Source: Undibacterium sp. KW1
GTDB lineage: Bacteria > Pseudomonadota > Gammaproteobacteria > Burkholderiales > Burkholderiaceae_D
Assembly: GCF_009937955.1 (NCBI RefSeq)
Contig: NZ_AP018439.1
Span: 3,472,001 to 3,536,000 of the forward strand
DNA: 64,000 nt
Reading direction: 5' to 3'
Shown: positions 4,857-29,264 of the stretch, piece by piece
How positions within the stretch are numbered: position 1 is the first letter of the stretch
Layout of the letters: every line of letters starts with the position of its first letter
Translations under genes and position numbers: made by a program
The notes under the pieces: generated by a model
What the model was told of the DNA's origin: nothing
Databases searched by the model: none
What the model saw: the letters and a program-made list of their open reading frames with translations, nothing else

Positions 4857-7154
4857 TCAGAACTTGTGTTCAAACATGACGCGGGCAGTCACCGTGGTAG
4901 GGGTGACCGAAGTCTGGATTGTTGAACCCAAATCACTGTAGGTTGAGATATTCACATTATCCTGATGCAAAAGATTACCCAGGGAAACACGTAAATTGGT
5001 TTTGGGGTCAAATTTCCACAAGGCATATACATCCAGTACGCGCTTAGGTACAGAATAAGAACTCTGTACCGCAGAAATATTTACCGGACCACCGGTCTGG
5101 AAGCTGGCATTGCCACCCAGAGTCAATGGTATTTTATCCAGTTTGTAATCCAAGCCCAGATTGGCGCTGATAGGCGTTTGTGAATCCAGACGATTATTCG
5201 GCCCAGGCACACTGCTGATGCTGGACCAATTGAAAGAGAGATTTGCTCTGAAGTCGATGGCTGGTGCACCCTCCATCATCGCACGCAAGGGGAATTTCGC
5301 TTCCAGCTCTATACCTCTAGTCGTTGCCTGACCATCATTGACTGGCATGGTGACATAAACTTTGCCTTGGTCAGTCACCTCCTCGGTCAACTTTGTGCGA
5401 GTAAAATCATTGATCCTGCGGAAAAATACACTAGCGCTGAGCATGCCACCGCCAGGCAGGTAGTGCTCATAAGCCATATCCAGACCCCAGGCCAGTTCTG
5501 GCTTGAGATTAGGATTGCCCATACTGTCCGGACTATTCGGGTTCTTGTTATCGCTTGAGATAAAGCGGCGCGGTATCAAACGACTGGTATCCGGTGCCTT
5601 GTAAGTGCGGGTAATACCCAGCCTGATCTGGTCGTTCTTACTATCCGGCAGTTTGTACAAAGTCTGCAGTATCGGGCTCCAGACACTGAATTTGTTATGA
5701 ATACTGTAAAACGTATTGTCCTTGTCCAAGACCTTGCCTTTGAAGTCACCACTGCTGCTAGTATCAATGCCTTCCCAGCGTAAGCCACCGTATACAGACC
5801 ACAGCTTGGTGACATTCCATTCATCCTGGGCAAACACTGCCAGACGGGTAACATCGGCATTGAAGTTTTCGTCAAGATTAATCGGTTTTAAAATACTTGG
5901 ATTGCTAATATCAACTTGCGTACGTGTCTCACCACGCTTGCTATACGCACCGTCCCAACCAAATACAAATGAGTGATCCTGAACAAATGGCGCACTGTAT
6001 TTGCCACTCATGGTCAAACCCTTGTCAGTAGCTTCAGAAACACTCTTGCGATCCAGTATTTGCGCGTGAGTATCGTCATATCCCGCAAATCCAACCTCAG
6101 AATTGCGCTTGTTATAGTTCACACCCATTTTGACATCCAGCTTGGCGCTATCGGCCAGCTTATGTATCCAGTTCAAATTGGTGCGCAGCATCGCGAAATC
6201 AGAGTTTATTTTTTGAAAATCGCTTGCGTAAGTTGGTTGCAAGAATTGTTTGTCTTTGTCTGTTACTGCGCCAAATACAGGTGACCTGACATCACTGGAA
6301 TAGCCGTCAAAACGGCTAGCATTGACAAAGCTCTGGGTGGTAACAGTATCGCCATTTTCGAGATTCCAGTTTACCCTTGGCGAAAACCCCACGTTATTGA
6401 AAGTACCCCAACCAAGGTTGTAGGTATGCGTTTTGACCAATAAATTGCCATTCGCATCCGTGCGCACCTCATCGGAATATGAAGGCCTTTCATATTTTCC
6501 ATGGTTCATGTTGCCTGAGATGGAATAGGACATGCGCCCAGCCTTGTCAGACACCTGGTAATTGATATTCTCACCAAACTTGCCGCCATCTTCAAACAGG
6601 CCTAGCTTCAGTTCTTTTTGTGCTGTCTGCACGGTCTTTCTCAAGACGATATTGATGGTACCCGCAATAGATGCCGTACTCAGATCAGCCGTCGCTGCAC
6701 GTATGACTTCTATACGCTCTATGAGGTCAGGGGAAAGGGAGTCCAGCGAAAAACCTGGTGGGCTGGGTTCACCATTGAGCATGATCTGGGTATAACCTGC
6801 GCCGAGGCCACGCATGCGGATATCACCGCCACGGCCCTGTACACCACCAATAGTCACACCTGGCAAGCGTTTAAGTACTTCGCTGACAGTAGTGTCGCCA
6901 TAGCGCAAGATTTCTTCCTGGGTCACGACGATCTTGGACGCTGTGTCCTGACGGCGTTCGTCATAGACGCGGTTACCCTGTACTTCTACTTTTTGTATTT
7001 TGGGTTCAACGGCCTTGGAATCTGCTTTTTCAGCAGTTTCGGCTTTGGCAGGCGTCGCCGGCGCAGTAGTTTGCGCATAGGAAGACTGGCTGAAGGCGGC
7101 CATGATAGCCAGGGACAAGATAGTTGGGCGTAAGGCTAAACTGTGGGTTTGCAT
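4857..7154 (-). CDS. TonB-dependent outer-membrane receptor
   Basis: A 765-aa outer-membrane transporter that uses TonB energy to import a bound ligand such as a siderophore, heme or metal complex. From the ATG at 7154 there is a signal peptide (MQTHSLALRPTILSLAIMAA to SYAQ), a linker, a plug domain at about residues 45-160 with TVSEVLKRLPGVTIGG and RMRGLGAGYTQIMLNGEP, and a long beta-barrel ending in Phe (VMFEHKF), the usual outer-membrane insertion signal. An in-frame start 12 codons upstream would delay the signal peptide, so I chose the internal ATG. The substrate cannot be read from sequence; there is no siderophore gene beside it. Confidence 0.92.
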   Translation of the reverse strand: MQTHSLALRPTILSLAIMAAFSQSSYAQTTAPATPAKAETAEKADSKAVEPKIQKVEVQGNRVYDERRQDTASKIVVTQEEILRYGDTTVSEVLKRLPGVTIGGVQGRGGDIRMRGLGAGYTQIMLNGEPSPPGFSLDSLSPDLIERIEVIRAATADLSTASIAGTINIVLRKTVQTAQKELKLGLFEDGGKFGENINYQVSDKAGRMSYSISGNMNHGKYERPSYSDEVRTDANGNLLVKTHTYNLGWGTFNNVGFSPRVNWNLENGDTVTTQSFVNASRFDGYSSDVRSPVFGAVTDKDKQFLQPTYASDFQKINSDFAMLRTNLNWIHKLADSAKLDVKMGVNYNKRNSEVGFAGYDDTHAQILDRKSVSEATDKGLTMSGKYSAPFVQDHSFVFGWDGAYSKRGETRTQVDISNPSILKPINLDENFNADVTRLAVFAQDEWNVTKLWSVYGGLRWEGIDTSSSGDFKGKVLDKDNTFYSIHNKFSVWSPILQTLYKLPDSKNDQIRLGITRTYKAPDTSRLIPRRFISSDNKNPNSPDSMGNPNLKPELAWGLDMAYEHYLPGGGMLSASVFFRRINDFTRTKLTEEVTDQGKVYVTMPVNDGQATTRGIELEAKFPLRAMMEGAPAIDFRANLSFNWSSISSVPGPNNRLDSQTPISANLGLDYKLDKIPLTLGGNASFQTGGPVNISAVQSSYSVPKRVLDVYALWKFDPKTNLRVSLGNLLHQDNVNISTYSDLGSTIQTSVTPTTVTARVMFEHKF

Positions 7155-7397
7155 ATAGATATTATTGTGGCAATAGTCGTTAGAGAACAAACCTTAGACC
7201 ATACCATACGGCGTCAAGTTCCGCGACGCAACAAATGTTTGCTCAAGTTATTGCTCATTGCAGTTTTCAAATAAGCAACACTCTTATCAATTCTTACAAA
7301 TTATTTTTTGAAACATCAGCAACAGAGTCTTACACTTGAATTGTCAACGCAAACGCCCTGTCAAGCATTACAACTGGAGTACCAACAGGAGTACATC

Positions 7398-10606: not shown

Positions 10607-11980
10607 TCAATTTGTAAGCCCGGAATTTGATGGATTTACTGGTGACAGATGCTGCAAAACAGATAAGGAAATAGCAGGCAAGGAAATAACAAACCTGGCG
10701 CCACCATATTGCCCTTCTTGCACCACTATTTCACCGCCATGGGCAGCGATGGCTTTTTTTGCAATAGCCAAGCCCAGGCCAAAACCGCCAGTGCTGCGGT
10801 CACGGCTGCGGTCCAGCCTGAAAAAGGCGTCAAAAATGCGCTCCCTTTCCTCGGCAGGTATGCCGGGGCCATCATCTTCAAGCATGATTTCAAGGCTGCC
10901 ATCCGCATTCCTGCTGGCATGCAGCCAGATGCATGCAGTGGCGTATTTGGCAGCATTACGCAAGAGATTGCTGATTGCCCGTTTCAACAAGCGCTGATCG
11001 CCGCAATAAGTCCCCAGATCGACGGAAAAATCTGTATTGACTACATGCACATCCAGCACATGCTGCAAGCTGGCGACACAACTGGAAAGACTATTGGCAA
11101 TATCGAATTCACTCCTGTTCAGGCTGGCATCCTGGTCCAGTTTGCCCAGGTCCAGTAACTCACTGACCAGCGCATTGAGCTCACTGATATCGGCTTCCAT
11201 GGCTTGCATCCGTGGTTCAAGCTGCGGATTTTTGGCGGCGTTTCTCAAGAGCTCCAGTGCAAATTCCAGCCTGGCGATGGGCGTGCGCAATTCATGCGAG
11301 ACTGAATGCAAGAGATTTTTTTGCGCATCCAGCAGGCTCTCTATACGGGCCGCCATCTGGTTCATGCGCTGTGCCAGCGGGTGTATGCTGTCACGTTCTT
11401 TGGTCTGTGCCCGGACCTTCAAATGACCCGCACCAAATTCATCGGCCACTTTTTCCAGCGCCTGCAAACCCCGCCAGTGCGAGCTGGACCAGACCGCAAT
11501 CGGGATCAGCAGGCAGAGTGCCACGATGATGTAGCGCAGCGCCTCGGTCTTGAGAACGGGCGCAACATCAATCGGTAAATTCTGCGCATGGATGACTTCT
11601 TCATCACTACCCACATAGCGCTCGCCTTTCAGATCAACGCGGCGGTAAAAGGATTTGCTGGCAACATCGATGACCACTTCACCACGCATCAGTTGCGCCC
11701 GCCTTGTCTGGTTCAACTTGGCCAGTACCGGCTGCATGGGTATCAAATCCATCCGCGCGCGAGTGATTTCCCTGATCTTGTTGAGGCGTGTCAGCCATTC
11801 ATTCTGACCTGCCTGATCGACGTACTCCGTCAATAATAAAATCTGCCCTGATGCCTGCTGCTGTGCGACTTCTTCCAGAGGATCACCAAAGAAAACGGTG
11901 ATGGACACATAGATGGCAATCGTAGCGACGCTGATGGACAGCATCACCAAAGCAAAAAAACGCAGGAACAGGCGATTCAT
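10607..11980 (-). CDS. Sensor histidine kinase (RstB-like)
   Basis: A 457-aa membrane kinase. Transmembrane helix 1 covers about residues 8-30 and helix 2 about 160-180, bounding a periplasmic sensor of about 130 residues. A HAMP linker follows, then the H-box SHELRTPIARLE with the phospho-accepting His, and an ATPase domain with LLRNAAKYA (N box), EDDGPGIP (G1) and GFGLGLAIAKK (G2). Located 3 bp after the stop of the response-regulator gene on the same strand, it forms a two-component system with it. RstA/RstB-type homology is from the overall architecture; the signal is unknown. Confidence 0.9.
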   Translation of the reverse strand: MNRLFLRFFALVMLSISVATIAIYVSITVFFGDPLEEVAQQQASGQILLLTEYVDQAGQNEWLTRLNKIREITRARMDLIPMQPVLAKLNQTRRAQLMRGEVVIDVASKSFYRRVDLKGERYVGSDEEVIHAQNLPIDVAPVLKTEALRYIIVALCLLIPIAVWSSSHWRGLQALEKVADEFGAGHLKVRAQTKERDSIHPLAQRMNQMAARIESLLDAQKNLLHSVSHELRTPIARLEFALELLRNAAKNPQLEPRMQAMEADISELNALVSELLDLGKLDQDASLNRSEFDIANSLSSCVASLQHVLDVHVVNTDFSVDLGTYCGDQRLLKRAISNLLRNAAKYATACIWLHASRNADGSLEIMLEDDGPGIPAEERERIFDAFFRLDRSRDRSTGGFGLGLAIAKKAIAAHGGEIVVQEGQYGGARFVISLPAISLSVLQHLSPVNPSNSGLTN

Positions 11981-11983
11981 CTG

Positions 11984-12670
11984 CTAGTCCCAGGCAGACG
12001 GGCTGAACAGATAGCCCTCTCCCCAGACTGTCTTGATCTTGTCGGCATGCGGATCATCAAACTTGCGCCGCAGACGGGAAATTTTATTATCGATACTGCG
12101 GTCCAGGCCATCAAACTCTATGCCACGCATCTGTATCAGTATATCGTTGCGTGACAAAACCTTGCCTGCAGCCTCGGCCAGCACCAGCAACAATTTATAT
12201 TCTGCGCTATTGAGTGTGACAGTTTCGTCGCGCCAAAATACCGTGCGGTCACTCCGGCAGACACGAAAGGCACCAAAAACCAGGTCAGCGTTTTCATCTT
12301 CAGGCTCATCCTTGACGCGCCTCAGCAAGGCACGCAGGCGGGCCAGCAATATCCTTGGTTGCACAGGTTTGTTGACATAGTCGTCAGCCCCCTGCTCCAG
12401 ACCCGAGACTTCATCAAAGGCATCTTCACGCGCTGTCAAAATCAGGATAGGCACGGCACTGATGGCACGCAACTGACGGCAAACTACCATGCCGTCGAGG
12501 CCAGGCAACATCAGGTCTAGCACCACAATATCCGGTGATGTTTGTTGAAAATGGCTGAGCGCAGCATCGCCACGGCTGACGATGTCTATTGTAAATTCGT
12601 ATTCTCTGAGATACTCGGCAACCAGCGCTGCCAGCTTGGCGTCATCTTCCACCAGCATTACACGAAACAT
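11984..12670 (-). CDS. OmpR-family response regulator (RstA-like)
   Basis: A 228-aa two-domain regulator from ATG 12670, preceded by AAAAGGAGAG. The receiver domain has acidic pair EDD, phospho-acceptor Asp in VVLDLMLPGLDG, and the Lys in VNKPVQP. The C-terminal winged helix has LNSAEYKLLLVLAEAAG and RSIDNKISRLRRKF. An in-frame start 16 codons upstream would add a Met/Arg/Gln repeat peptide that comes from a short tandem DNA repeat, so it is rejected. Partner of the kinase encoded immediately downstream. Confidence 0.92.
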   Translation of the reverse strand: MFRVMLVEDDAKLAALVAEYLREYEFTIDIVSRGDAALSHFQQTSPDIVVLDLMLPGLDGMVVCRQLRAISAVPILILTAREDAFDEVSGLEQGADDYVNKPVQPRILLARLRALLRRVKDEPEDENADLVFGAFRVCRSDRTVFWRDETVTLNSAEYKLLLVLAEAAGKVLSRNDILIQMRGIEFDGLDRSIDNKISRLRRKFDDPHADKIKTVWGEGYLFSPSAWD

Positions 12671-12919
12671 ATACTTCTCTCCTTTTTGCATTGCCCTCAT
12701 TTGCCGCATTTGCCGCATTGTAGAGCGGGCAGCGCGCGATTCTACGCAAATTGCTCATGCTTGCGACGCCACTTACAATTTTCAGACAATTTCAAGCCAG
12801 GCAAGATTTACAAATTAAAGACAATTATCTGACATTTTCAAGAACGACTTTATCCCTGCCGCCCGTTATTCTCTGTCGCCATACCATCCCCAACAGGCAA
12901 ATCTTTTTTAATCTTGATT

Positions 12920-17501: not shown

Positions 17502-18815
17502 TTACCAGCGACGCAGCACTTTGAATATGCCATGCTCCACATCCACGGTGAGTAATTGCCCGCCACGGCTGCCGTAGTGTTGGCCAGAATGAAAACTTAT
17601 TGTGCCAAATCCTGGCACAGTAAAATCTCTGAGCTGGTTCAGTTGTTGCAGCAGTTCTGCGCGGCCAAGCTGGCGGCCACTGCGTTTAAGTGTCTCTATC
17701 AATACCATACCTGCTGCGTAGGCGACGTCATTGTAGGCAGCAGGCAGGTCAAAGACCGGGCTGCTGGTACGCCATGGTAACAACAGACGCAGGCGGGCTG
17801 CTTGTGCGGGTGGTAGTTGCAGGCTGGCGGGACCTGTGTGAATGGCACTCGCATATACCAGGCCATCACCAGTGGCGGCAAGTACTTCACGCAAGTTGGC
17901 GGCGCTACCCAGATAAATCACTGCTTCGCCGGACTGGCTGACCTTGGCAGACCATATTTGTTCACGCAATGACTGGTGATTTGCCCGCGCCTGCTCGCGT
18001 AATTCCTTGAGCAATGCATGCAAGGCGGGATCATTGCTCTGATCATAGATCAGGGTCAGTTGTTGTGTCGCTCTATTGTTGCTAGCTACGCCATGAGCAT
18101 CCAGCGCAGCCCGTACCAGCAAAGCGCTGGCTTGTTCACGTACTGGCGGCAAGAGGTGGAAGCTGTCTTGTGCAAGCGCGTCAGAAAAACTGTCAAGACC
18201 TGGTGCAGGTAAGGGGCCGATGACTGCCAGCTGGTTCACTTCAATCCTTGAACTGGTCGTGGCCTGCGCGCCGCTTTGCAAGCTAGCGACCTCGACAAAT
18301 ACCTGGTCAGGTGCTGGATTGACAAGCAGTTCCAGTTTGCGCCCATATACGCCATTGGCGACCTGATCAAAAGCCTTGTTCAAACCTGCCTGTATGGCGG
18401 CACCATAGACGTTGTCAGGCAAAGAGACGCCCACACGTAGTACGGTGTCAGTAAGGCCGGGAGTGTCCTTGCCGATGACACTCAGGTAAGCGAGCAAATC
18501 ATCGAGGTCTGCGGCATCGATGTGATAACGGGGCATGAGTGGATGCAAGAACTGACCATTGCTGCCCACGCCGTCAAGCAAGGCGCGTTGCAGATGCTGA
18601 CGGTCTGGTTTACCTGCCAAAGGCGGGGCTTGCAAGCCGCCCTCTTCTTTGCCCTGCCCCAGGCTGCCATGACAGCGCACGCAGGCTGCCTGGCCGTTCC
18701 AGCCTTTGTAGTACGTGGCCTGGCCGCGTTGCCATGCCTGACCGTCAGCCCTGGCAAGGTCTGTGCAGAACAGGCAGAGCAAAGCAGCAAGTGCAACCCA
18801 AAGCCTTGCCATCAT
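17502..18815 (-). CDS. Cytochrome c fused to a periplasmic-binding-protein-like domain
   Basis: A 437-aa exported protein. After a signal peptide (MMARLWVALAALLCLFCTDLARA) comes a class I cytochrome c domain with heme motif CVRCH (residues 45-49) and a likely axial Met in HPLMPRY. From about residue 125 it resembles a type I periplasmic binding protein of the LivK/ABC-substrate class (TVLRVGVSLPDNVYGAAIQAG to LLQQLNQLRDF). The start overlaps the stop of the SCO gene by 4 bp (ATGA), so translation is coupled. It is the last gene of the multicopper oxidase operon and could accept or pass electrons from the oxidase (inference). The fusion is unusual. Confidence 0.82.
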   Translation of the reverse strand: MMARLWVALAALLCLFCTDLARADGQAWQRGQATYYKGWNGQAACVRCHGSLGQGKEEGGLQAPPLAGKPDRQHLQRALLDGVGSNGQFLHPLMPRYHIDAADLDDLLAYLSVIGKDTPGLTDTVLRVGVSLPDNVYGAAIQAGLNKAFDQVANGVYGRKLELLVNPAPDQVFVEVASLQSGAQATTSSRIEVNQLAVIGPLPAPGLDSFSDALAQDSFHLLPPVREQASALLVRAALDAHGVASNNRATQQLTLIYDQSNDPALHALLKELREQARANHQSLREQIWSAKVSQSGEAVIYLGSAANLREVLAATGDGLVYASAIHTGPASLQLPPAQAARLRLLLPWRTSSPVFDLPAAYNDVAYAAGMVLIETLKRSGRQLGRAELLQQLNQLRDFTVPGFGTISFHSGQHYGSRGGQLLTVDVEHGIFKVLRRW

Positions 18816-19870
18816 CTTGCGGGCAATAGCTTTCCTACAGCCAGGGCAATATCTTCTGGCTTTGCTGTCGCATAGATTTTTTTCCAGTCGCCGGTCTGTA
18901 CATTGCCTGCCAATAAAATACCGCTATGGGCATCTTTGTCTTCGCCACTGCCACCGAGTTTTTTAGCGACCGCGCTGATATTCTCTGCACTGCCTGTTAA
19001 AAACAGCCAGCCGGGGCGCACCTTGAACTTGCTGGCAAAGTCTTTCAATACCTGTGGGGTATCCGTGTCAGGATCGACTGTAATGCTGACCATTTGCACC
19101 CGTGGGTCCAGCAAGGGTTGTACCTTTGCCAGATTGGCGGTCATGGGTGAGCAGATGCCGGGGCAGGTCGTGAAGATGAAATTGATGAGGACGACTTTGT
19201 CTTTCATGACATCATCAAAAAAATGCACGGTCTTGCCATCTTGCGTTTGCAGAGGCAAATTGGGAAAGTAGCGGCTATTGGCTGACTGCATGGCAGGGTC
19301 AGGCCCGGCAACTTGCTCGATCGTACTCTGGATCAGTTTGGCCTCAGGCATGCTGGCGAGTTGTTGCCAGGCCTGTTTTTTTTCATTGATGACCAGTACC
19401 AGGCCGCTGTGATTGCTGATGTCGCCGACACCGGCATTGAGGGAGCGTAATAATTTATCGACGACGGATTTATTACCCGTCAAAAACTGCCAGCCCGGCC
19501 CAGCCTCAAATTGTTTGGCAAAGGCTTTGAGGCGTGGCGGCTGGTCGGTATTGGGGTCTATGCTGATGGAGATAAAAACCACGTCGCGCCCTACCCGCGC
19601 GCCCAGGTCACGCTGCACCTGGCGCAAGGTGGCGGTCTGGGTGGGGCAGATCATGGTGCAGGACGTGAAGATGAAATTGACGACCGCTGTCTTGCCTTGC
19701 ACAAGGTCACGGTAGAAGGCGACGTTCTTGCCATCCTGGTTGACCAGTTGAGCTTCTGGTATAGAGCGCATGGCTGCCTGTGCAGATGGCATTGCTACGA
19801 ACAAGACACTGCACACTATGAGTAGCATTTTGTTTATTACGCCTGTTATGTCATTCATCACTTGCCACAT
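18812..19870 (-). CDS. Tandem SCO1/SenC-type copper chaperone
   Basis: A 352-aa exported protein with two SCO domains. Domain 1 has CTMIC (Cys71, Cys75) with copper-binding His154 (NHSGLV); domain 2 has CPGIC (Cys236, Cys240) with His315 (AHSGIL). Each domain has the thioredoxin-like SISIDPNTD or SITVDPDTD strand and GWQFLTG or GWLFLTG. SCO proteins deliver copper to, or reduce the thiols of, copper sites such as CuA. Here it sits 22 bp after the propeller gene and overlaps the cytochrome gene, so metallation of the multicopper oxidase is a reasonable role. Internal Met5 or Met15 are alternative starts closer to the signal peptide. Confidence 0.9.
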   Translation of the reverse strand: MWQVMNDITGVINKMLLIVCSVLFVAMPSAQAAMRSIPEAQLVNQDGKNVAFYRDLVQGKTAVVNFIFTSCTMICPTQTATLRQVQRDLGARVGRDVVFISISIDPNTDQPPRLKAFAKQFEAGPGWQFLTGNKSVVDKLLRSLNAGVGDISNHSGLVLVINEKKQAWQQLASMPEAKLIQSTIEQVAGPDPAMQSANSRYFPNLPLQTQDGKTVHFFDDVMKDKVVLINFIFTTCPGICSPMTANLAKVQPLLDPRVQMVSITVDPDTDTPQVLKDFASKFKVRPGWLFLTGSAENISAVAKKLGGSGEDKDAHSGILLAGNVQTGDWKKIYATAKPEDIALAVGKLLPAR

Positions 19871-19892
19871 ATTGATACACTCCAGTCAGTCT

Positions 19893-21818
19893 TTATTTCA
19901 CCGTCAATACCAGTCGTGCCGATTGATTCCAGCTCATGCCCAGCGATGCTGACTGGAAGTAAACATAGTAATGCCCACTGACGGAAGGCGCAAAGTCGAT
20001 GCCATAGTCGCCGTTTTTTTGTTCCTGTGCATCCAGTTGTAATTGTTGATTACCCGTTGCATTAAACAGCAAGACCTGCAAATCAGGAATGCCGGTCTTT
20101 GGCTGGCCACTGAGCGCATCGCGGATAGCGAATTGCAGTTTCTGGCTTTCACCTTTGCTCAATGCTGGCGCAGTTCCAGCCAGTGTCACCGCATAACGTG
20201 TTGCAGGTGGTTTGGCCGGATCAGCCTGCACTGTGATCGGAAAACAATGCAGCATCCTGGGTGAGTCGAGATAAAACACTACCTGGTAATTGCCAGCCTT
20301 GGGCAAGCGTGCACTGGCCTGGTATAGACCGGGCTGGCGTTCTTGCAGGCTATGGTCCAGCACCAGTACGGCACGCGGCTCGTGGCCGTAATTGCGGAAG
20401 CTGCCTGCGGGTGCGCTCATGCCTTCCTGGTAGTAATAGATGGTACGGTCAGCGGGGTTGGCCAGCAAGGCGGCGGCACCATTGGGCACCATCACGGTGG
20501 TGTCTGCCAGGCTGCTTGCGCTGTGGCCCTGGTCAAAGGCTTTTTGACCATTACTGACTGATGCCAGCGCCAGTGGCTGTCCTGCCTGTATGTTATGTGC
20601 TATTGCATCGAGCGGCACCAGTTGCACGATTTCACTGTGGCGTCGCCGGATATAGGCCATGCGATCAGAAAACGTGACCTGGTCTGGCCCATGTGCAATG
20701 TCTGCGCCTTGCACGATCTGGTTGGTAGCAGCATCGAGCAAATCGAGTTTGTTTTTTTGTGGATTGAGGATAACGCCGTAGCGGCCATCGGGTGTAAAGC
20801 GGATGGTGGATATGCCGGGCAGCGCCTTGATACTTGCCGCCTGTTTGCCAGCCACATCAAAGGCGATAATCTGGCCATCGCCTTCGTGCGCGACGTACAG
20901 CAGTTGCGCCTTGGATGACCAAGCCATGGCGACAGGCCTCGTGCCAGCTGTAAGATCAGCAGTTTTCTTGAGGCTGCCCGCGTCGATGAGGCTGATGCTG
21001 TTGTCTTTGGCATTGCTGACAAATGCGCTCTTGCCGTCATCACTGAAGGCGATCGTGTGGTGGCCCAGTCCCGTCTTGATTGCTGCCAGCACCTGGCCAT
21101 TGGATGCTGACAATACTGTCACGCCATCGTCCGTCAATACCCATACTTGCTGTGCGCCAGGGCGCAAAGCCATTTTCCCCGGATGACCAGGTACGGGCAC
21201 GTGGGTTTTGACTTGCCAGTTGCGGGTATCAACCAGCGCCACTTCATCCACCTGTGGCTGGCTGACCAACAGGTTTTGCTCGGGTGTCAGCAACCAGTCT
21301 TGCCCTGGCCCATGCAGTATCACCATGGTCAGCAGTTTAGAACCACCAAAACCGGTTTGCGGATTGATGACGGAGATGGAATTGTCTTCATTCAGTGCCA
21401 GCACGTAATAGGCATTCAGGCTGAGTGCAGGTGCATGCAGTAAATCACCTCCTATGAAGGTGGCGACCTTGCGGCGGCAAGCCTGCTCGCTGCTTTCTTC
21501 CCCCTGGGTTTGTCCGCCGTGCCCATCGACCCAGGCGATAGGCCGTACATTTCGGATAGGCCTGGTGCTGGCGGCATCGCGCAGGCTCAGGGTGAAGCGT
21601 GCTTCTGCCCCTTCTTGCATGGACTGCGACATCTCCAGTTGTAAGGAAACGCCATCCTTGATCACCTGATTTGGTGTGATGCTACTCTCTGGTACAGATG
21701 CTGCGCTGACCTTGCCAGCAAAAATAACTGACAGGGCAGTCGCCAGCACCAAGCCCGCCAGGGCTTGATGCTGGCGACTGCGTACATAGGCGAATTTGCT
21801 CAGATTGGCATACCCCAT
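19893..21818 (-). CDS. Secreted YVTN-type beta-propeller protein
   Basis: A 641-aa exported protein. After a hydrophobic N-terminal segment there are repeated propeller blades (AFVSNAKDNSISLIDAGSL, LLYVAHEGDGQIIAFDV, YGVILNPQKNKLDLLDAA), as in YVTN/YncE proteins, and the C-terminal 200 residues contain two immunoglobulin-like beta domains. It shares one base with the end of the multicopper oxidase gene (21818), showing tight coupling. It could be a partner or docking protein for the oxidase. Its enzymatic role, if any, is unknown. Confidence 0.78.
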   Translation of the reverse strand: MGYANLSKFAYVRSRQHQALAGLVLATALSVIFAGKVSAASVPESSITPNQVIKDGVSLQLEMSQSMQEGAEARFTLSLRDAASTRPIRNVRPIAWVDGHGGQTQGEESSEQACRRKVATFIGGDLLHAPALSLNAYYVLALNEDNSISVINPQTGFGGSKLLTMVILHGPGQDWLLTPEQNLLVSQPQVDEVALVDTRNWQVKTHVPVPGHPGKMALRPGAQQVWVLTDDGVTVLSASNGQVLAAIKTGLGHHTIAFSDDGKSAFVSNAKDNSISLIDAGSLKKTADLTAGTRPVAMAWSSKAQLLYVAHEGDGQIIAFDVAGKQAASIKALPGISTIRFTPDGRYGVILNPQKNKLDLLDAATNQIVQGADIAHGPDQVTFSDRMAYIRRRHSEIVQLVPLDAIAHNIQAGQPLALASVSNGQKAFDQGHSASSLADTTVMVPNGAAALLANPADRTIYYYQEGMSAPAGSFRNYGHEPRAVLVLDHSLQERQPGLYQASARLPKAGNYQVVFYLDSPRMLHCFPITVQADPAKPPATRYAVTLAGTAPALSKGESQKLQFAIRDALSGQPKTGIPDLQVLLFNATGNQQLQLDAQEQKNGDYGIDFAPSVSGHYYVYFQSASLGMSWNQSARLVLTVK

Positions 21819-24800
21819 TAGCGTTTCCGACGTTCTATTTTTTGCAATGGCAACACTGGTGGTTCGGCCAACTTATCCACAGCCACTTTCGCGCTATTGG
21901 TCGCTGTCAGGATAGCCGCTGCAGGTTTGTGCTGCGCCAGTCCACCGAAAGAAGAGCGCACTTCGAGCATGCCGGGCGTTGCTACATTGGCCTTGAATTG
22001 CCAGCGCCCGGTCTGGTCAACTGCGACCTTGCCCAGCACTTTGCCGTCAGCCATGATGGTGACAGAGTCTGCCTGCTCCCATTGCACGCTGCCGGGGCGC
22101 ACCGTGACGCTACCGGTGACTTCAAGAATGCCCTCAACCGACACCACATTGTCAATCACGACGATATCGGCAAATACTTCCTGCACTGTTGCTGTGACAG
22201 ATCCGACAGTAATCTGTGGAGCAGGACTGACGCGGAATACGCCCCAGCCGCCGGTGCCATATTGGCCATTGGGCCAGCTGCGGTACAAATAGTCGCCTGG
22301 TACTGCGAATGTTCCACCTGCCTTATCCACTACCACATCAAAATGCGAGGTCGTGCCATAGCCGGACTGGGTACCCGTCGATAATGAGGCTGGGTTACTG
22401 GCTATCCTGGTGGAGTTACCGGCATAAGGTTCAAACTGCCAATGATGACCAGTCAGCTCAAATACATTCATGCTATCAGCCAGCCCTGGCGGGCCAAACA
22501 AGCGGAAGCGTACTGGCGTGCCTGCATTGGCACGGAAGACTGGTGTTTGCGGATCGCCATTGACCAGGGTATTTGATACCTCAGCCGTGGTGTCGATAGC
22601 CGGAAGATTCAGATTGACCTGGGTACCGTAGCGATAAAAGAAAGGTTCGGTACGGTAGTTCACCGCCATCATGGGCGCGCCCGCGCTGTACAGTGATTTG
22701 CCTTGATACTGCATGGCGATATCGGTTTGCATGAAGACCGCAAAATCACGGAAAGGCTTGCCTGCTGCAGGCGACACCGTGCTGGAGATATGCGTACCCG
22801 GATCGTCTTGCCATTTCGCACCGATAGGCTCGATGATCATGCCGCCAAACAAGCCATGGTAAGCCTGCATCAACGGGTCGGCCGGTGTCAGGTTGAGGGC
22901 ACCAAATTCTACTGGCGTGGCCTTGGTGACGCCGTTTTCGTTTTGCAGGGTACCGGCATACCACGTGTAAGTAATGGATGGCAGAGTACCTGTGCAAGGT
23001 AGAGGATTGCAAGCAAGGACAGTCTGTACAGGATTGAGCCCAACGTTCATACCATCTGAATGACTGACATCCATCGCCAGCAATTGTGGATGCAGACCTG
23101 CCTGGGTAGACGGCAGCAGATTGATATTGGCGTAGGCGCCTGTAAATCCAGGATTAGGCCTTGCCGCTGACTCAGGTGTGGAAAATACAGACGCCATGGC
23201 ATTGATGCGATTGGTCAGTTGCAGCTTGATGACATCGCCAGCAGCAGCACGCAAGGCAAGAGGTTCAATATTGAGCCCGGCTTTCAAGGTGCCGTTCGGG
23301 TTCAGGTCCTGGTCTTGCACATACACGATGGCATTGGGGTCGTTCAGGGTATCTTTCGAGAACTGGCCATTCGACAGTTTGGCACCGCGGCTGTTATACA
23401 GTAAGGGGCTATCGGAACCCAGCAGTTGTTGTATGGTCGTGGCCGATACCTTGAACTGACGCACACAAGGGCCGCGCGCAGTGCAATCAGTGGGCAGGTT
23501 GGGCATGGTGGTGGCAACCGGCCTGATGCTGGTATTGCCAGGCAAGGGCGAGAGCCATGACACCTGATTATTATGACTGCGCATCAGGCTCCAGGCACCA
23601 CTGACATTGCCATCATAGGCATTGCTGGCGTTGACCAGATAATCCAGCGACTGCGCCTTACCGGTTTGCGGGATGGTGAACAGGGTTTCAAAATGCTCGG
23701 ACAAGCCCATGGTCTGACTGCCGCGGTAGCCAGAGTTGGTATCGAAGGGTTCGAACAACCATTTGTTGCCATTGACAGTGACGGTATGGTTACCCACCAG
23801 TGCGCCATCGATGATGCGTAATTGCACAGGGTCGTTTTCATAGACATGCAAGATCGGCGTGAAAGGATCAGTGCCTCCCATCTGTGCACTGACTGGCTGT
23901 TTTGGGAAAGTAAAGCAATTATTCGTGGCAGTTTTTACGCAACCCGGATTGATGTTTGCACCAGCCGTTGGTTGCACATTCAGTTGTGCATCATTACGTA
24001 AAATGGAGCTGTAAGAGCCTGCCAGGTCCGTGCCTGAATTGACGGCACCATTGCTGGACGCCACCCGCAAGGCCAGGGATTCATTGCGGTAATTGAGTAC
24101 CGACACACCGATACCAAAACCACCAATGATACTTGGCGTGGTGTTTGGCGGAATCGGTGGATTGACCGGATTGCTGACTGCAAATGGCAAACAGCCGACG
24201 CAGTTGATACCATTGAGCGGATCAGCCCAGCCAGTGTAACTACCATTTGCGCTGCGCTTGCAACCGCTGTATATCGGGTCCTGGCCGGGATAGCAATCAA
24301 AGCTGGTACGGCTGGCTGGCAAATAGGCAAATTGTGAGTCTGCAACAGCCAGCGCAAATTCACGGTAGGCCTTGCCCTGGCGTGGCAAGATGTTGGCTGC
24401 ATAACTGGTGGGGCCACCATCGCTACGGCCACCCAGCCAGGTTTTACCATCGACCGAAGTCCAGCGTGAGTCTGTTGGCTCTACCACCAGCCCGGCATAC
24501 AGGCCCACCATCTGGTGGGTAGACGGACCAAAATGGTCATGGGTAAATACGGTCAGCAGGGTGCGGTCGGCTTTTTGCTTGTCCATTACCGGATCAACCC
24601 ACCAGCGCTGAACCGTCGCCTGTGCGCCCACCCACTGCTTGCTGCCGGGTGTAGGGCCATCGCCAAAGCTGGCTATGGGTTTGGCGGTCAGCTTGACTGA
24701 TTTGCCATTCACGGCAATGCCACCAGCCTGATTGATGCCGGTGATACGGGCGCGCACCTCGTCGGGGCTGAAGGTGCCGTCTTCATAATTGAAACCATTG

Positions 24801-27157
24801 GCTGCACCATCGGATGCAAGCACATCAAACTTCACCAGGTGGATATGCTGACCGATGATGTCCGTCGGTGTGCGTACCTGGAAATCATCGAGCTCATAAT
24901 AACTGGGAACGAGATTGGTGTGCCAGTACTCCACCACATCATTACTGTTGGCGCGGAAGAACAAGGGTTCTGGCGGTTTGTCACCGTTCAATATCGGTTT
25001 CACATCCTGCCACAAGGCCAGTATGCGTTGCTGCGGGAAGTGCCAGCCTTTTTTATTGAGCACAACGTCAGTCTGCATGGCAGCGCCCTTGTAGATGCGT
25101 ACTGGTGGTGTGACGGTAGCACCTCTGGCTGGGTTGGCAAACGGTGCACCAGGTGCACGCTGCAAACCATTCATGGCAAACTGCGCGGGGCTGCCATCTG
25201 GCAACCTGGTAGCAACTGATTTTTGTTCATGCATGGCCATTGCCGCCTGTTCTGTGACGGTGCCCTGCTCTGGCAATTCTATGGCATTGATACTGCTCAT
25301 TTCCTTGGTAAAGTCGGTCTGCGTGTATTGATCGACAGAAATTTTTCCGCCGGTGATCAGATGGCGTGGCAAGCCGCCATTCAGTGCGACGCCATTCTCG
25401 ACGGCAAAATCATTGGGCGGATGCGGCGCACGGTGGCCGGCGATGCCCGGTACAAAGAAGGGATAACCAGGGTTGCCTGCACCAGTCACTTTGACCTGGC
25501 CTTTATCGATATGCACTGCCGCCGGCAATGGTGCCATGGCACGGGTTGGCAGGGGCACTAAGCCGGGGATGGGTGTGCCAGCCAATATCTCGGCGTCAGG
25601 CAGCGCCCGCGACATTGGCACTGGCCTGCCATCACTGCCCAGGGGCGTGCCCAGTTCCAGCACGTCATGCACGCGGAACAAGGCCCACATGCCGCTGGCA
25701 AAATGCGGATAGAAATGGCAATGGAAGATAGAATCACCCGGCGTCAGGTTGCGGTTACCGCTGCCTTCATAGACCAGGTCCATTGTATAGGAAGTGCCTG
25801 GGCCTATGGTCTGACTGTCGAGGTAACTGCTGGCATCACTGTCCGGTGAATATAGCCATTGGTGAGCATGATGATGATGCACATGAAATACCCCCTGCCC
25901 CGCATGCAGGACACGGAAACGGGCGCGGTCACCCTGGTAAGTGTGATACACATTCGATGGATCATCCGGGTAGAGCGCCACCGTCGCTTTGGGTGGGGTG
26001 CAAGGCTGGGGCGAGCATGTCAGATTGGCGGGATTATCAACCACCATGGCTGGATCACCACCCGCCCACGAGCTCAGGAAAAATTCTTCAAACTTGCATT
26101 CAGGGCAATCAGCAGTCGGCCCGACCTTGAGACGGTTAGCGAGAATTTCAGCAGAAATACCTGCTGAACCATAATTGATGGAAAAAGCATCATTGGCACC
26201 GCTGAGCACATTATTTTGATCCGCCAATTGGGGAAATGCCTGAACAAGTGAGAAGGAGTCATGGTACATCACCGTCACTTCACGGTATGGCGATTCCGGG
26301 TTGAGATAGGAGGGATTGCGTGCACCAGTCACCGTGAAAGGGCCATGATTTGGTCCGGTGATGATGGCAGTCAGATCGCTGTGGACAATATTATTTTTAG
26401 CATCCAGCATTTTCAATACCGGCTTGCTGCTGCCAGGCACCAGCGCACCGTAATTGATCACTGGGTAACCCGCAGTACCGGTAACCGAAGCCTGTTGCAT
26501 TTCAGCCTGCGTGACCTGGCTGCGATACCATTCTGAGCCGCGTGGCTGCACATTCACAGAACCAAACAGGCCATAGGTCAATTGCTCCTGCCCGGCCAGG
26601 CTATACAGTAAAAAACTGCCCTCTTCTGCCGCGAACAGGCGATAAGTGATCGCTTTGCCAGGCTGGATAATACCGCTGGCATCTCCTGTCGCAGACACAG
26701 GATTATTACCTACAAAGGCGCCGTCATCGGTGATGGTTTGCACCAGCTCCATACCGGCCACATGCACCGATGCATTGCGCGTCGCAGGCGGGTTGGAATT
26801 GGAATGTGGCCGATTGAGCCAGTTCTGGAAATTGACCACCAGGCAGTCGCCCACATTCGCCCGCAAGACCATGGGCCGTGGGCGTTTGCCTGGCCGCAAT
26901 TGTGCATTGCCTGGCCCTGGCGTGCTGCCTCTGACAGCGACCACATCGCCACGCAGCGCATACACCATGCCGCCCGGTTGCGAAGTGCCGAGGCGGTTAA
27001 TCATCATGGCCTGGTCTATCGCCACCACGTCCGCCGTGACGATGCGTTCACAACGCGCAGCAGCCAGATTATCCGGCGCAGCCTGGGCGTGAGCCTGAGC
27101 GGCGAGCATGAGTAATATGGGGGCGAAACTACCGCCTATCATAGAAAGGAATTTCAT
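21818..27157 (-). CDS. Giant secreted multicopper oxidase (MofA/MnxG-like)
   Basis: A 1779-aa exported protein: signal peptide MKFLSMIGGSFAPILLMLAA to QAHAQA, then about six or more cupredoxin-like domains. Copper-ligand clusters visible: H425-V-HHHH-A-H432; H479-C-H with H485 and M490 (type 1 site: HCHFYPHFASGM); H771-I-H; and H873-D-H with H881. Later cupredoxin-like domains (from about residue 1000 on) have few conserved ligands. Total length is close to the 1.6-1.7 thousand residues of Leptothrix MofA as I remember it, and well above ordinary laccases (about 500-600). Such proteins are linked to Mn(II) oxidation, but substrate is an inference. A hairpin-like dyad TGGCAG-AG-CTGCCA lies in the leader at 27207-27220. 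Confidence 0.85.
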   Translation of the reverse strand: MKFLSMIGGSFAPILLMLAAQAHAQAAPDNLAAARCERIVTADVVAIDQAMMINRLGTSQPGGMVYALRGDVVAVRGSTPGPGNAQLRPGKRPRPMVLRANVGDCLVVNFQNWLNRPHSNSNPPATRNASVHVAGMELVQTITDDGAFVGNNPVSATGDASGIIQPGKAITYRLFAAEEGSFLLYSLAGQEQLTYGLFGSVNVQPRGSEWYRSQVTQAEMQQASVTGTAGYPVINYGALVPGSSKPVLKMLDAKNNIVHSDLTAIITGPNHGPFTVTGARNPSYLNPESPYREVTVMYHDSFSLVQAFPQLADQNNVLSGANDAFSINYGSAGISAEILANRLKVGPTADCPECKFEEFFLSSWAGGDPAMVVDNPANLTCSPQPCTPPKATVALYPDDPSNVYHTYQGDRARFRVLHAGQGVFHVHHHHAHQWLYSPDSDASSYLDSQTIGPGTSYTMDLVYEGSGNRNLTPGDSIFHCHFYPHFASGMWALFRVHDVLELGTPLGSDGRPVPMSRALPDAEILAGTPIPGLVPLPTRAMAPLPAAVHIDKGQVKVTGAGNPGYPFFVPGIAGHRAPHPPNDFAVENGVALNGGLPRHLITGGKISVDQYTQTDFTKEMSSINAIELPEQGTVTEQAAMAMHEQKSVATRLPDGSPAQFAMNGLQRAPGAPFANPARGATVTPPVRIYKGAAMQTDVVLNKKGWHFPQQRILALWQDVKPILNGDKPPEPLFFRANSNDVVEYWHTNLVPSYYELDDFQVRTPTDIIGQHIHLVKFDVLASDGAANGFNYEDGTFSPDEVRARITGINQAGGIAVNGKSVKLTAKPIASFGDGPTPGSKQWVGAQATVQRWWVDPVMDKQKADRTLLTVFTHDHFGPSTHQMVGLYAGLVVEPTDSRWTSVDGKTWLGGRSDGGPTSYAANILPRQGKAYREFALAVADSQFAYLPASRTSFDCYPGQDPIYSGCKRSANGSYTGWADPLNGINCVGCLPFAVSNPVNPPIPPNTTPSIIGGFGIGVSVLNYRNESLALRVASSNGAVNSGTDLAGSYSSILRNDAQLNVQPTAGANINPGCVKTATNNCFTFPKQPVSAQMGGTDPFTPILHVYENDPVQLRIIDGALVGNHTVTVNGNKWLFEPFDTNSGYRGSQTMGLSEHFETLFTIPQTGKAQSLDYLVNASNAYDGNVSGAWSLMRSHNNQVSWLSPLPGNTSIRPVATTMPNLPTDCTARGPCVRQFKVSATTIQQLLGSDSPLLYNSRGAKLSNGQFSKDTLNDPNAIVYVQDQDLNPNGTLKAGLNIEPLALRAAAGDVIKLQLTNRINAMASVFSTPESAARPNPGFTGAYANINLLPSTQAGLHPQLLAMDVSHSDGMNVGLNPVQTVLACNPLPCTGTLPSITYTWYAGTLQNENGVTKATPVEFGALNLTPADPLMQAYHGLFGGMIIEPIGAKWQDDPGTHISSTVSPAAGKPFRDFAVFMQTDIAMQYQGKSLYSAGAPMMAVNYRTEPFFYRYGTQVNLNLPAIDTTAEVSNTLVNGDPQTPVFRANAGTPVRFRLFGPPGLADSMNVFELTGHHWQFEPYAGNSTRIASNPASLSTGTQSGYGTTSHFDVVVDKAGGTFAVPGDYLYRSWPNGQYGTGGWGVFRVSPAPQITVGSVTATVQEVFADIVVIDNVVSVEGILEVTGSVTVRPGSVQWEQADSVTIMADGKVLGKVAVDQTGRWQFKANVATPGMLEVRSSFGGLAQHKPAAAILTATNSAKVAVDKLAEPPVLPLQKIERRKR

Positions 27158-27786
27158 CTCGGTTCCATTTCAAGAAAGTTGGGGTGCGATAAACCTGGGT
27201 GCAGTTTGGCAGAGCTGCCAGTTGTTTATATTTTTAATTGCTTTTTTTATAATTTCGACTTCACTATACTCCAATTTCTTAAGTTTTTAGCAATCAGTGG
27301 AAATATTTTAATTGCGGCTGGATTGTCGTTGTGTTTTTAATACAAACTTCAGCGCGAGATGTCAAACCAGCCGGAAAACTGGTCACGAATGTGTCGCCAC
27401 GGAATACCGTCTGGCAAAACCACGTCAACGAGTTCTACCCTTATTCATCAGGCGACGCAGGATTGCGCACTAAACAGGAGTCGCCATGGATATAAATAAT
27501 CTGGCATAGCGAAACAAACTTATGAACAAATCGATGATGTGTGTCCCATGGCAGGGAAAATACCCCGCGTGATTTCATTCCCTTTGAAGCCATTCGGATT
27601 CAAACGGGGAATACGCCTGCACTTTTCGTCCCTAAAAAGAAAAGCATCGAATGCAATAAACCAATCGAGGCCACATGGCATTTATTAAATAATTAACATT
27701 TTTTATAGTCTATTAGCCATATTAAAATGCTGACTTCTGCACAAATATGGTATTGTCAAAAAAGCACTTAAATTGACGAGGAATAA
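27158..27786. other. AT-rich region between oxidase operon and accessory gene
   Basis: It must contain the leader and promoter of the oxidase operon (right-to-left) and the RBS GAGG of the next gene. Between 27331 and 27495 a GTG-initiated frame on the + strand encodes 54 protein-like residues (NTVWQNHVNEFYPYSSG), and a second frame ending at 27696 has FIPFEAIRIQTGNTPALF. The two are in different frames and separated by stops. They could be relics of a decayed gene, but I recognise no family. Confidence 0.35.
27207..27220 (-). promoter_or_regulatory. Small inverted repeat in the multicopper oxidase leader
   Basis: TGGCAG-AG-CTGCCA, 50 bp before the oxidase start. It could be an operator or a leader hairpin; no function is proven. 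Confidence 0.3.
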
Positions 27787-28471
27787 ATGGACGACCAAGA
27801 AGAGATCAAACGCGATAAAAGAATAGTAGATGTACTGTTCATTATTTTTTTCCTTATAACAGGATTTTTCGCTTTCCTAATATATCTATATGCCAAAACA
27901 TTTACAGATTTAGGTAAGTCTTCTTTATCTGAAGCCAGTCAAAAGGCTCTACTTGATAAAGCCGCTACCTGGGGTCAACTTGGCGATTTTTTTGGAGGGC
28001 TTGCAAATCCAGTCATTGGATGGATAACGATATTTCTACTGATTCTAAATCTTGTATATCAAAGGAGGCAATTGAGTAACGCAAAAAAAGAAGCCGAAAA
28101 GGCGCATGAAATTAATCTAGAACAAGCACGCCATGCGATAGTACAAAGTTTTGAACAAACTTTTTTCTCATGGCTCAACAATCTTAGAGATGCGATTGAT
28201 TCTGTTACCTATACTCACATGGACGAAAACAATGACCGCTTAGATTGCAAAGGTGCGGAAGCATTGAAGTACATGATTAAAGACTCGCCATTATTTTCAC
28301 TCAATCTCATTAAGTCTAATTCCTTTCAAGAAAATCCGGCAATTGATGCGCACAAAAAATGGACGTCGTTCTATCACGAATACGAGCATATTCTTAGTAG
28401 AAAGTTTAATACCTTAGAACCTGTTCGAGATCTTATTGTAAACAAAAGGAATATTGCGTAAACTCGGTTAG

Positions 28472-28804
28472 ATGAGAAAAATCTACCCAAGCGACATAAG
28501 TCGAGAACAGTTTGCAAAGATAGAAGATATTCTGCTGAGCGCACGCAAGAAAACCAAGCCGCGCCAAGTGGATTTATATGATGTTTTTTGCGCGGTATTG
28601 TACGTGTTAAAAAGTGGCTGCCAGTGGGACATGATACCGAGCGACTTTCCTCCTAAAAGTACGGTGTACACGTACTTTAAGCAATGGAAAGAGAAGCCGT
28701 TGGGAAGTGAGTTAAGCCTGCTGGAGCAGGCTTTAAAAAAATCAGGTTGGCGCGGCCCGTACCAAACATGGTCGGAACGTACACAGCACCTTTTTGATTG
28801 TTGA
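28472..28804 (+). CDS. IS5-family transposase, N-terminal frame (orfA)
   Basis: A 110-aa protein with the DUF4096-like/IS5 N-terminal pattern (YPSDISREQFAKIEDIL, LKSGCQWDMIPSDFPP, VYTYFKQW), which contains the DNA-binding part of the transposase. It ends just inside orfB, whose frame is +1 relative to it; a T5 stretch (CTTTTTGA at 28789-28796) lies in the overlap and may be where the ribosome shifts to make the full transposase. Confidence 0.9.
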   Translation: MRKIYPSDISREQFAKIEDILLSARKKTKPRQVDLYDVFCAVLYVLKSGCQWDMIPSDFPPKSTVYTYFKQWKEKPLGSELSLLEQALKKSGWRGPYQTWSERTQHLFDC

Positions 28805-29264
28805 CGCCCAGAGTGTCAAAAACACGGATACGGCAAAACACAAAGGCTACGATGCAGGGAAGAAAATATCAGGAATCAAGCGCCATATTGCCGTTGACAC
28901 AGAGGGGCTACCTCATGCCATTGCCGTGACAACAGCCGACATCACGGATAGAAAGGGAGCACTGGAAGCGTTTGAGCAGCACAAGCATTCCTTGGGCAAG
29001 GTTGCCAGCGTGCTCGTCGATGGTGGTTATACGGGACGCCCTTTTGCTGAGGGTGTCCATCAAATTCTGGGGGCGTCCGTACAAGTTGCCAAGCGCAATG
29101 AACTCCACACCTTTAGTGTCATGCCTCAGCGGTGGGTGGTGGAACGCTCTTTTGCCTGGCTTGAGAAATGCCATCGCCTTTGGAAAAACTGTGAGCGACA
29201 ATTAAATACCAGCTTGCAATTCGTTAATTTGGCATTTCTCACTTTGCTCTTGCGGCGCGGGTGA
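28794..29264 (+). CDS. IS5-family transposase, catalytic frame (orfB)
   Basis: A 156-aa DDE domain: first Asp in IVDAQSVKNT, second Asp in VLVDGGYTG, and Glu in WVVERSFAWLEKCHRLWKN (with the R and K of the YREK-type signature). It is probably translated as a fusion with orfA by frameshifting, because it has no clear RBS and starts in the overlap. Confidence 0.9.
   Translation: MIVDAQSVKNTDTAKHKGYDAGKKISGIKRHIAVDTEGLPHAIAVTTADITDRKGALEAFEQHKHSLGKVASVLVDGGYTGRPFAEGVHQILGASVQVAKRNELHTFSVMPQRWVVERSFAWLEKCHRLWKNCERQLNTSLQFVNLAFLTLLLRRG

Follow-up and report, generated by a model that had tools for sequence, protein, structure and literature searches.

The window analyzed here is a stretch of 64,000 nt from Undibacterium sp. 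KW1 (NZ_AP018439.1, positions 3,472,001-3,536,000; assembly GCF_009937955.1, 6.69 Mb in two contigs). At positions 17502-27157 its minus strand contains four genes, each beginning with an ATG codon. The first encodes a giant multicopper oxidase (MCO) of 1779 aa (21818..27157), and is followed by the genes for a YVTN-type beta-propeller protein of 641 aa (19893..21818), a tandem SCO protein of 352 aa that comprises two SCO1/SenC domains (18812..19870), and a 437-aa fusion of a mono-haem cytochrome c with a type I periplasmic binding protein (17502..18815). Base 21818 is common to the MCO stop and the propeller gene, a gap of 22 bp separates the propeller gene from the SCO gene, and the SCO and cytochrome genes overlap by 4 bp. 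The translations of all four products, inspected by eye, display an N-terminal segment that resembles a signal peptide. The four same-strand genes and the junctions described in the original prediction were confirmed, and its domain calls hold for every product, on the basis of profile searches, motif comparisons and, for the propeller and the binding-protein domain, AlphaFold models.

The only strong relative of the window MCO in the PDB, by sequence, is MnxG (9bxa; 280 bits). The protein scores 1074.6 bits against the NCBIfam MnxG model NF041487, for which the cut-off is 3100, and gives a sub-threshold match to Pfam Cu-oxidase_3 (18.1 bits, cut-off 21). It is 36-37% identical to Pseudomonas-type MnxG, and among named proteins it is 92% identical to that of U. 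umbellatum and 79% to that of U. hunanense, with further Undibacterium entries also matching. An alignment of 75 proteins, the window MCO among them, plus one Priestia outgroup reveals that residues H425, H428, H430, H479, C480, H481, H485 and M490 are invariant in the 74 rows that cover them, and that H771, H773, H873 and H875 are invariant in all 75 covering rows; the outgroup keeps every one of these copper ligands. The individual roles of the ligands are presumed from the general MCO motif. In the bacterial six-domain scheme, as outlined in a passage of PMC3600357, the type 1 copper resides in domain 2 and the trinuclear centre lies between domains 2 and 3. The ligand motifs of the window MCO and their order fit this scheme in the sequence alignment. 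By kinship, the enzyme is predicted to be of the six-domain bacterial type, and copper-oxidase catalysis with O2 as the acceptor is a well-supported prediction from the ligands.

In a tree of 76 sequences and 1582 columns, the window MCO groups with proteins of Undibacterium, Massilia, Bradyrhizobium and Tahibacter and with several from acidobacteria and myxobacteria. It lies outside the clade of the MnxG proteins, which is separate and has a support of 1.0; support for two nodes deep in the backbone is low (0.24 and 0.62), which makes the exact branching tentative. On the grounds of the separate clade and the score below NCBI's cut-off, we reject MnxG orthology for the window MCO. The protein also runs on beyond residue 1648 with a C-terminal extension of 131 residues. 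Past the same point, 20 other rows of the window clade have 112-183 residues, most of them with a basic tail, the exceptions being P0119 with 2 residues, G145 with 42 and L020 with none, the last of which is cut by a contig end. The corresponding values in five MnxG rows are 0, 0, 4, 0 and 13. A weak NCBIfam match to an Ig-like domain (20.7 bits, cut-off 45) is located inside the extension.

The propeller domain is recognized by YVTN/PQQ-repeat models of Pfam and NCBIfam, and further beta domains are found both before and after it. A Foldseek search with the AlphaFold model of the protein (26 input sequences, mean pLDDT of 82.8) returned an archaeal YVTN surface-layer propeller as the top match, and the propellers of hydrazine synthase beta, AztD, NirF and nitrous oxide reductase as lower matches. 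The two SCO domains, which are 39% identical over 140 residues, each contain a CxxxC motif and a histidine (71-75 and H154 in the first, 236-240 and H315 in the second). From the family it follows that the protein should act as a copper-loading or thiol-disulphide partner of the MCO. The cytochrome has a single CxxCH haem site, and C45, C48, H49 and M94 are invariant in the 28 aligned sequences. Pfam did not reach the binding-protein domain in the window protein; it reached this domain in all three of the MnxG-operon cytochrome fusions scanned. The family profile of the fusion matches 3lop with a value of 4.3e-32, and the model of the binding-protein domain (mean pLDDT of 85.4) has leucine-binding-kind substrate-binding proteins as top Foldseek matches, with TM-scores of approximately 0.5 to 0.65. 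Turnover of an MCO needs no cytochrome, as the oxidase itself hands electrons to O2. Because of this, the labels of electron carrier and of docking or sensor protein that the original prediction gave to the cytochrome and the propeller, respectively, are guesses. The cytochrome fusion might serve in electron draw-off, maturation or sensing.

The layout of the window operon is a known operon type, here in a new host and with a diverged enzyme. The mnxG operon of Pseudomonas putida GB-1 is listed in Table 4 of PMC11409713 as mnxG, a YVTN propeller, two SCO1/SenC genes, an ABC substrate-binding protein/cytochrome c and SurA, and a similar six-gene operon is given in the text and a figure legend of PMC8218464. 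The window shows the same order of MCO, propeller, two SCO domains and cytochrome/binding-protein fusion. By contrast with the mnxG operon, its two SCO domains share a single gene, its last gene is not followed directly by SurA (a MarR-like and a SnoaL-like gene come next, both on the other strand), no MnxR-type regulator was found among the 18 flanking ORFs scanned, and its MCO, at the identity to MnxG given above, is below the cut-off and carries the C-terminal extension. The original prediction had named MofA/MnxG as the closest parallel; MnxG is the nearest characterised oxidase, but the truer match is the operon of P. putida published in the table mentioned above, with its identical order.

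The same order was found in genomes sampled from the family of one genome, G278. We infer this family to be Pseudomonadaceae from the match of G278 to the RsmY RNA family, which 47 of 369 genomes of the class match at E 0.001 and for which only G278 passes the curated score; two of 14 control genomes match below that score, and PF11839, tried as a Pseudomonas-control probe, had no match anywhere. An MCO above the MnxG cut-off is present in 31 of the 248 genomes sampled, and all five loci fetched from these 31 display the order MCO-propeller-SCO-SCO-cytochrome/binding-protein. The MCO of a sixth fetched locus (G931) is below the cut-off, and one SCO is present. Tandem MnxG-type genes also occur, three in a row in G892 (C22:376995-394951) and two each in G955 and G974.

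The relationship between the fused and the separate SCO genes was read from a tree of 84 SCO domains, using the separating edge because midpoint rooting was uninformative. This edge, with a support of 0.993, has on one side the first fused halves and, from five MnxG loci and G579, the first SCO gene; on its other side are the second halves and the second SCO gene of these loci. Each SCO half therefore groups with its respective Pseudomonas-type SCO gene, implying that the fused gene equals the Pseudomonas SCO pair. The fusion is found in other loci as well, for example L022, L032 and L039.

Comparison with other giant MCO systems was based, for MofA and McoA, on published descriptions. The mofABC cluster of Leptothrix discophora, in the passages devoted to it in PMC8218464 and PMC5566968, likewise has genes for a giant MCO and a cytochrome c, whereas its MofB is a peptidyl-prolyl isomerase and neither a propeller nor an SCO is described in these passages. 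A related cluster in Rubrivivax is described as having an extra copper metallochaperone. No MofB-type isomerase family was found among the flanking ORFs scanned in the window, where the cytochrome is present, and none of the MCO matches in a Burkholderiales sample of 399 genomes was identified as MofA. The Pseudomonas mcoA operon, as listed in Table 4 of PMC11409713, has a giant MCO followed by an SCO gene, but the table gives no propeller or cytochrome fusion for it; a search with P0001 at E 0.01 found no McoA-like second locus in eight genomes of the G278 family. Bacillus-type MnxG (PDB 9bxa) is homologous to the window MCO, but its chain has 1227 aa. The Priestia plasmid relative shares the copper ligands of the window MCO but lies in a different neighbourhood, which includes a CopC gene.

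Geobacter OmpB is homologous to MofA, and a passage of PMC5566968 describes its cluster as containing genes for an SCO and for a cytochrome like MofC. This raises the prospect that the window MCO and cytochrome move electrons out of the cell, the function suggested for OmpB and for Leptothrix MofC in extracellular electron transfer, and do not form an O2-linked oxidase. The haem site kept in 28 of 28 aligned cytochromes would suit such a function, yet the trinuclear O2 site of the window MCO is complete, the window cytochrome has one haem motif only, and the 18 flanking ORFs scanned include no cytochrome or porin-cytochrome family; a TonB-dependent receptor is encoded at 4857-7190. We consider this function quite improbable.

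The region upstream of the operon (27158..27786, minus strand) is partly conserved. Approximately its last 190 bases align, as judged by eye, with the copies of U. umbellatum and G027, and the leader CTTTCTTGAAATGGAAC is identical in the three. A sigma-54 promoter, as in the Pseudomonas mnx genes, was sought with a consensus pattern in the 620 bases upstream of four Undibacterium copies, gave no match and was rejected, and no NtrC/sigma-54-type regulator was found among the 18 flanking ORFs scanned, which are distinct and represent a subset of the flanking ORFs in the window. Scans for sigma-70 sites (15, against a shuffle mean of 9.8, sd 3.2) and terminators (16, against 11.0, sd 3.3) were too weak to use. 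Further upstream lie a divergent gene for a 224-aa protein with no Pfam or NCBIfam match (27787-28461), a DDE transposase fragment (28794-29264) and, among others, genes for an amino-acid kinase, an aquaporin-type channel and malate synthase. Downstream, past the MarR-like and SnoaL-like genes, are found a two-component pair at 10607-12718, roughly 4.8 kb from the operon, and genes for a glycosyltransferase, a MipA-like protein and the TonB-dependent receptor.

The two-component pair, an OmpR-type regulator and a histidine kinase, is a neighbour that could hint at a broad phenol or copper oxidase, laccase-like and serving copper defence, for which metal oxidation would be incidental; its best models, below cut-off, are nevertheless RstA and RstB and not heavy-metal ones. 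Such an enzyme would also accord with the fact that sequence cannot tell the substrate, and our searches of the open-licence literature showed no tested substrate for any member of the window clade. The closest characterised relatives, however, are Mn oxidases, and no copper-resistance family is present among the 18 flanking ORFs scanned, which makes a phenol or copper oxidase very improbable.

Among 118 relatives, the MCO has matches in six genomes: four of the same genus (its own included), G083, a genome of the same taxonomic order, and G077, whose doubtful short match (108 residues, E 2.7e-4, internal stops) was not counted. The propeller matches in five of the 118 (E up to 1e-20), namely the same four and G083, and the cytochrome fusion, at the same threshold, in the four same-genus genomes that have the MCO; the cytochrome of G083 is visible only in a looser local comparison. 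The occurrence of the propeller and the cytochrome fusion in the same four same-genus genomes as the MCO indicates that the cluster is not accidental, and this co-occurrence, together with 64 fetched loci, rules out a chance grouping of the four genes. In the order, 8 of 399 genomes have MCO matches (own included). In the class, 7 of 369 genomes match the NCBIfam MnxG model at E 1e-50 or better, again with its own among them, and none exceeds the cut-off. The original prediction had named conservation of the neighbourhood across the Oxalobacteraceae as a check. This conservation proved patchy: of the family's genomes in the 118- and 399-genome samples only the four of the own genus matched, although two Massilia records matched in the comparison with named proteins.

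The 64 MCO loci, each fetched with up to about 10 kb on either side, had been picked up through their similarity to the query or to MnxG. Partners were counted in the 44 with at least 5.5 kb downstream, the other 20 being left out for short flanks. A propeller is present in 41 of the 44, an SCO in 37, a cytochrome in 35 and all three in 34 (on the MCO strand in 30); the short-flank loci have all three in 6 of 20. Many fetched loci are closely related, and the counts are not those of independent events. Giant MCOs accompanied by all three partners occur in records that bear the names Acidobacteria, Myxococcota, Planctomycetota and Alphaproteobacteria. The ten counted loci that lack at least one partner comprise L043, L045 and L159 with none of the three, L026 and L027 with a propeller fragment only, on the other strand, L034 with the propeller as the sole partner, L035 without SCO, and L030, L031 and L164 without cytochrome. 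The self-contained module postulated at the outset, an enzyme with a copper-chaperone-type partner, is thus conserved together far beyond the genus. The grounds that had been named for abandoning it, a separation of the genes in relatives or a family with no metal link, did not refute it. In the G027 oxidase copy (L058 14531-14902), the reading frame is broken near codon 71, reflecting either a pseudogene or an assembly error. A Paracoccus yeei plasmid (L166, NZ_CP044079.1) encodes a giant MCO (about 2380 aa), after which come a protein of about 600 aa that matches the propeller profile, an SCO and a c-type cytochrome.

Five of the window's six flanking proteins have a match beside the G027 copy, and none of the six has one in the flanks that were fetched for the U. 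umbellatum and U. hunanense copies, a difference that fits a cassette moving as a unit. On a broader and tentative interpretation, which we consider rather unlikely, the cassette would be an ancient redox module, mobile and distributed across several phyla, of which Mn oxidation in Pseudomonas is one specialisation; the window clade, with its own C-terminal extension and with a LodA-type amino-acid oxidase within the cassette in Massilia, Bradyrhizobium and an acidobacterium, might then perform another oxidation or peroxide-linked chemistry, with the cytochrome fusion as a ligand-gated electron partner.

We favour, with a probability of roughly 0.6, an MnxG-type oxidase operon that encodes an exported, SCO-assisted copper oxidase with Mn(II) as the likeliest substrate. 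The shared gene order, the grouping of the SCO halves, the invariant ligands, 9bxa as the best PDB match and the co-inheritance of the partners argue for it; the missed MnxG cut-off, the separate clade, the 10 of 44 loci that lack at least one partner, the missing SurA gene directly after the operon and the absence of an NtrC/sigma-54-type regulator from the flanking ORFs scanned argue against it. The giant MCO would be exported and would fold and acquire its copper outside the cytoplasm with the help of the two-domain SCO protein, which has one domain for each ancestral SCO gene. The type 1 copper of domain 2 is anticipated to take electrons one at a time from a metal ion in its reduced state, and the trinuclear centre, between domains 2 and 3, to deliver them to O2. 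By analogy with the kin enzymes and their shared operon, Mn(II) is the likeliest substrate, and its oxidation would deposit Mn(III/IV) oxide on the cell surface. For the propeller, binding or stabilisation of the oxidase is the most likely role; the cytochrome-binding-protein fusion, in turn, most likely links maturation to a redox signal or a ligand, or serves to draw electrons off. Geobacter and Pelobacter are metal reducers, and since members of the family occur in metagenome-assembled genomes bearing these names (L026 and L027), the family need not oxidise Mn. A passage search of PMC5622069 gave nothing on the Mn site, and titles and abstract beginnings in the open-licence literature on Undibacterium with manganese or multicopper oxidase held no report of the operon.

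The same machine could instead have Fe(II) as its physiological substrate and serve as a surface ferroxidase. This is a serious rival, and the main one, because Undibacterium phylotypes, which need not carry the operon, grew in an Fe(II)-dependent manner in enrichments from groundwater sand filters, according to a passage of PMC6287000. Six-domain multicopper proteins include the ferroxidases ceruloplasmin and hephaestin, as stated in PMC3600357. We nonetheless regard Fe(II) as an unlikely substrate: only four own-genus genomes matched the MCO among the 118 relatives, and the gene order is that of a manganese oxidase operon.

The mnxG operon architecture is now placed in a freshwater member of the betaproteobacteria. 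Should Mn(II) be the substrate, potential Mn oxidisers extend well beyond the proteins above the MnxG cut-off; if it is not, naming such MCOs manganese oxidases by homology is unsafe. Whichever the substrate, the conserved partners offer a handle on the need of the oxidase for the propeller and the cytochrome-binding-protein fusion.

An additional gene is inserted between the propeller and SCO genes in three of the 64 loci. It encodes a LodA-like protein of 1230-1308 aa (L017:17291-21010, L019:17472-21164 and L024:17205-21131), the hosts being Massilia frigida, Bradyrhizobium SRS-191 and an acidobacterium. The L017 and L019 proteins match Pfam LodA_N and LodA_C and an iron-containing redox-enzyme domain, the L024 protein is assigned by resemblance, and in L024 the gene is followed by one for an FAD protein. 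LodA is also encoded elsewhere in the window genome (C1:1137285) and likewise in G019 and G027, that is, in three of 12 genomes.
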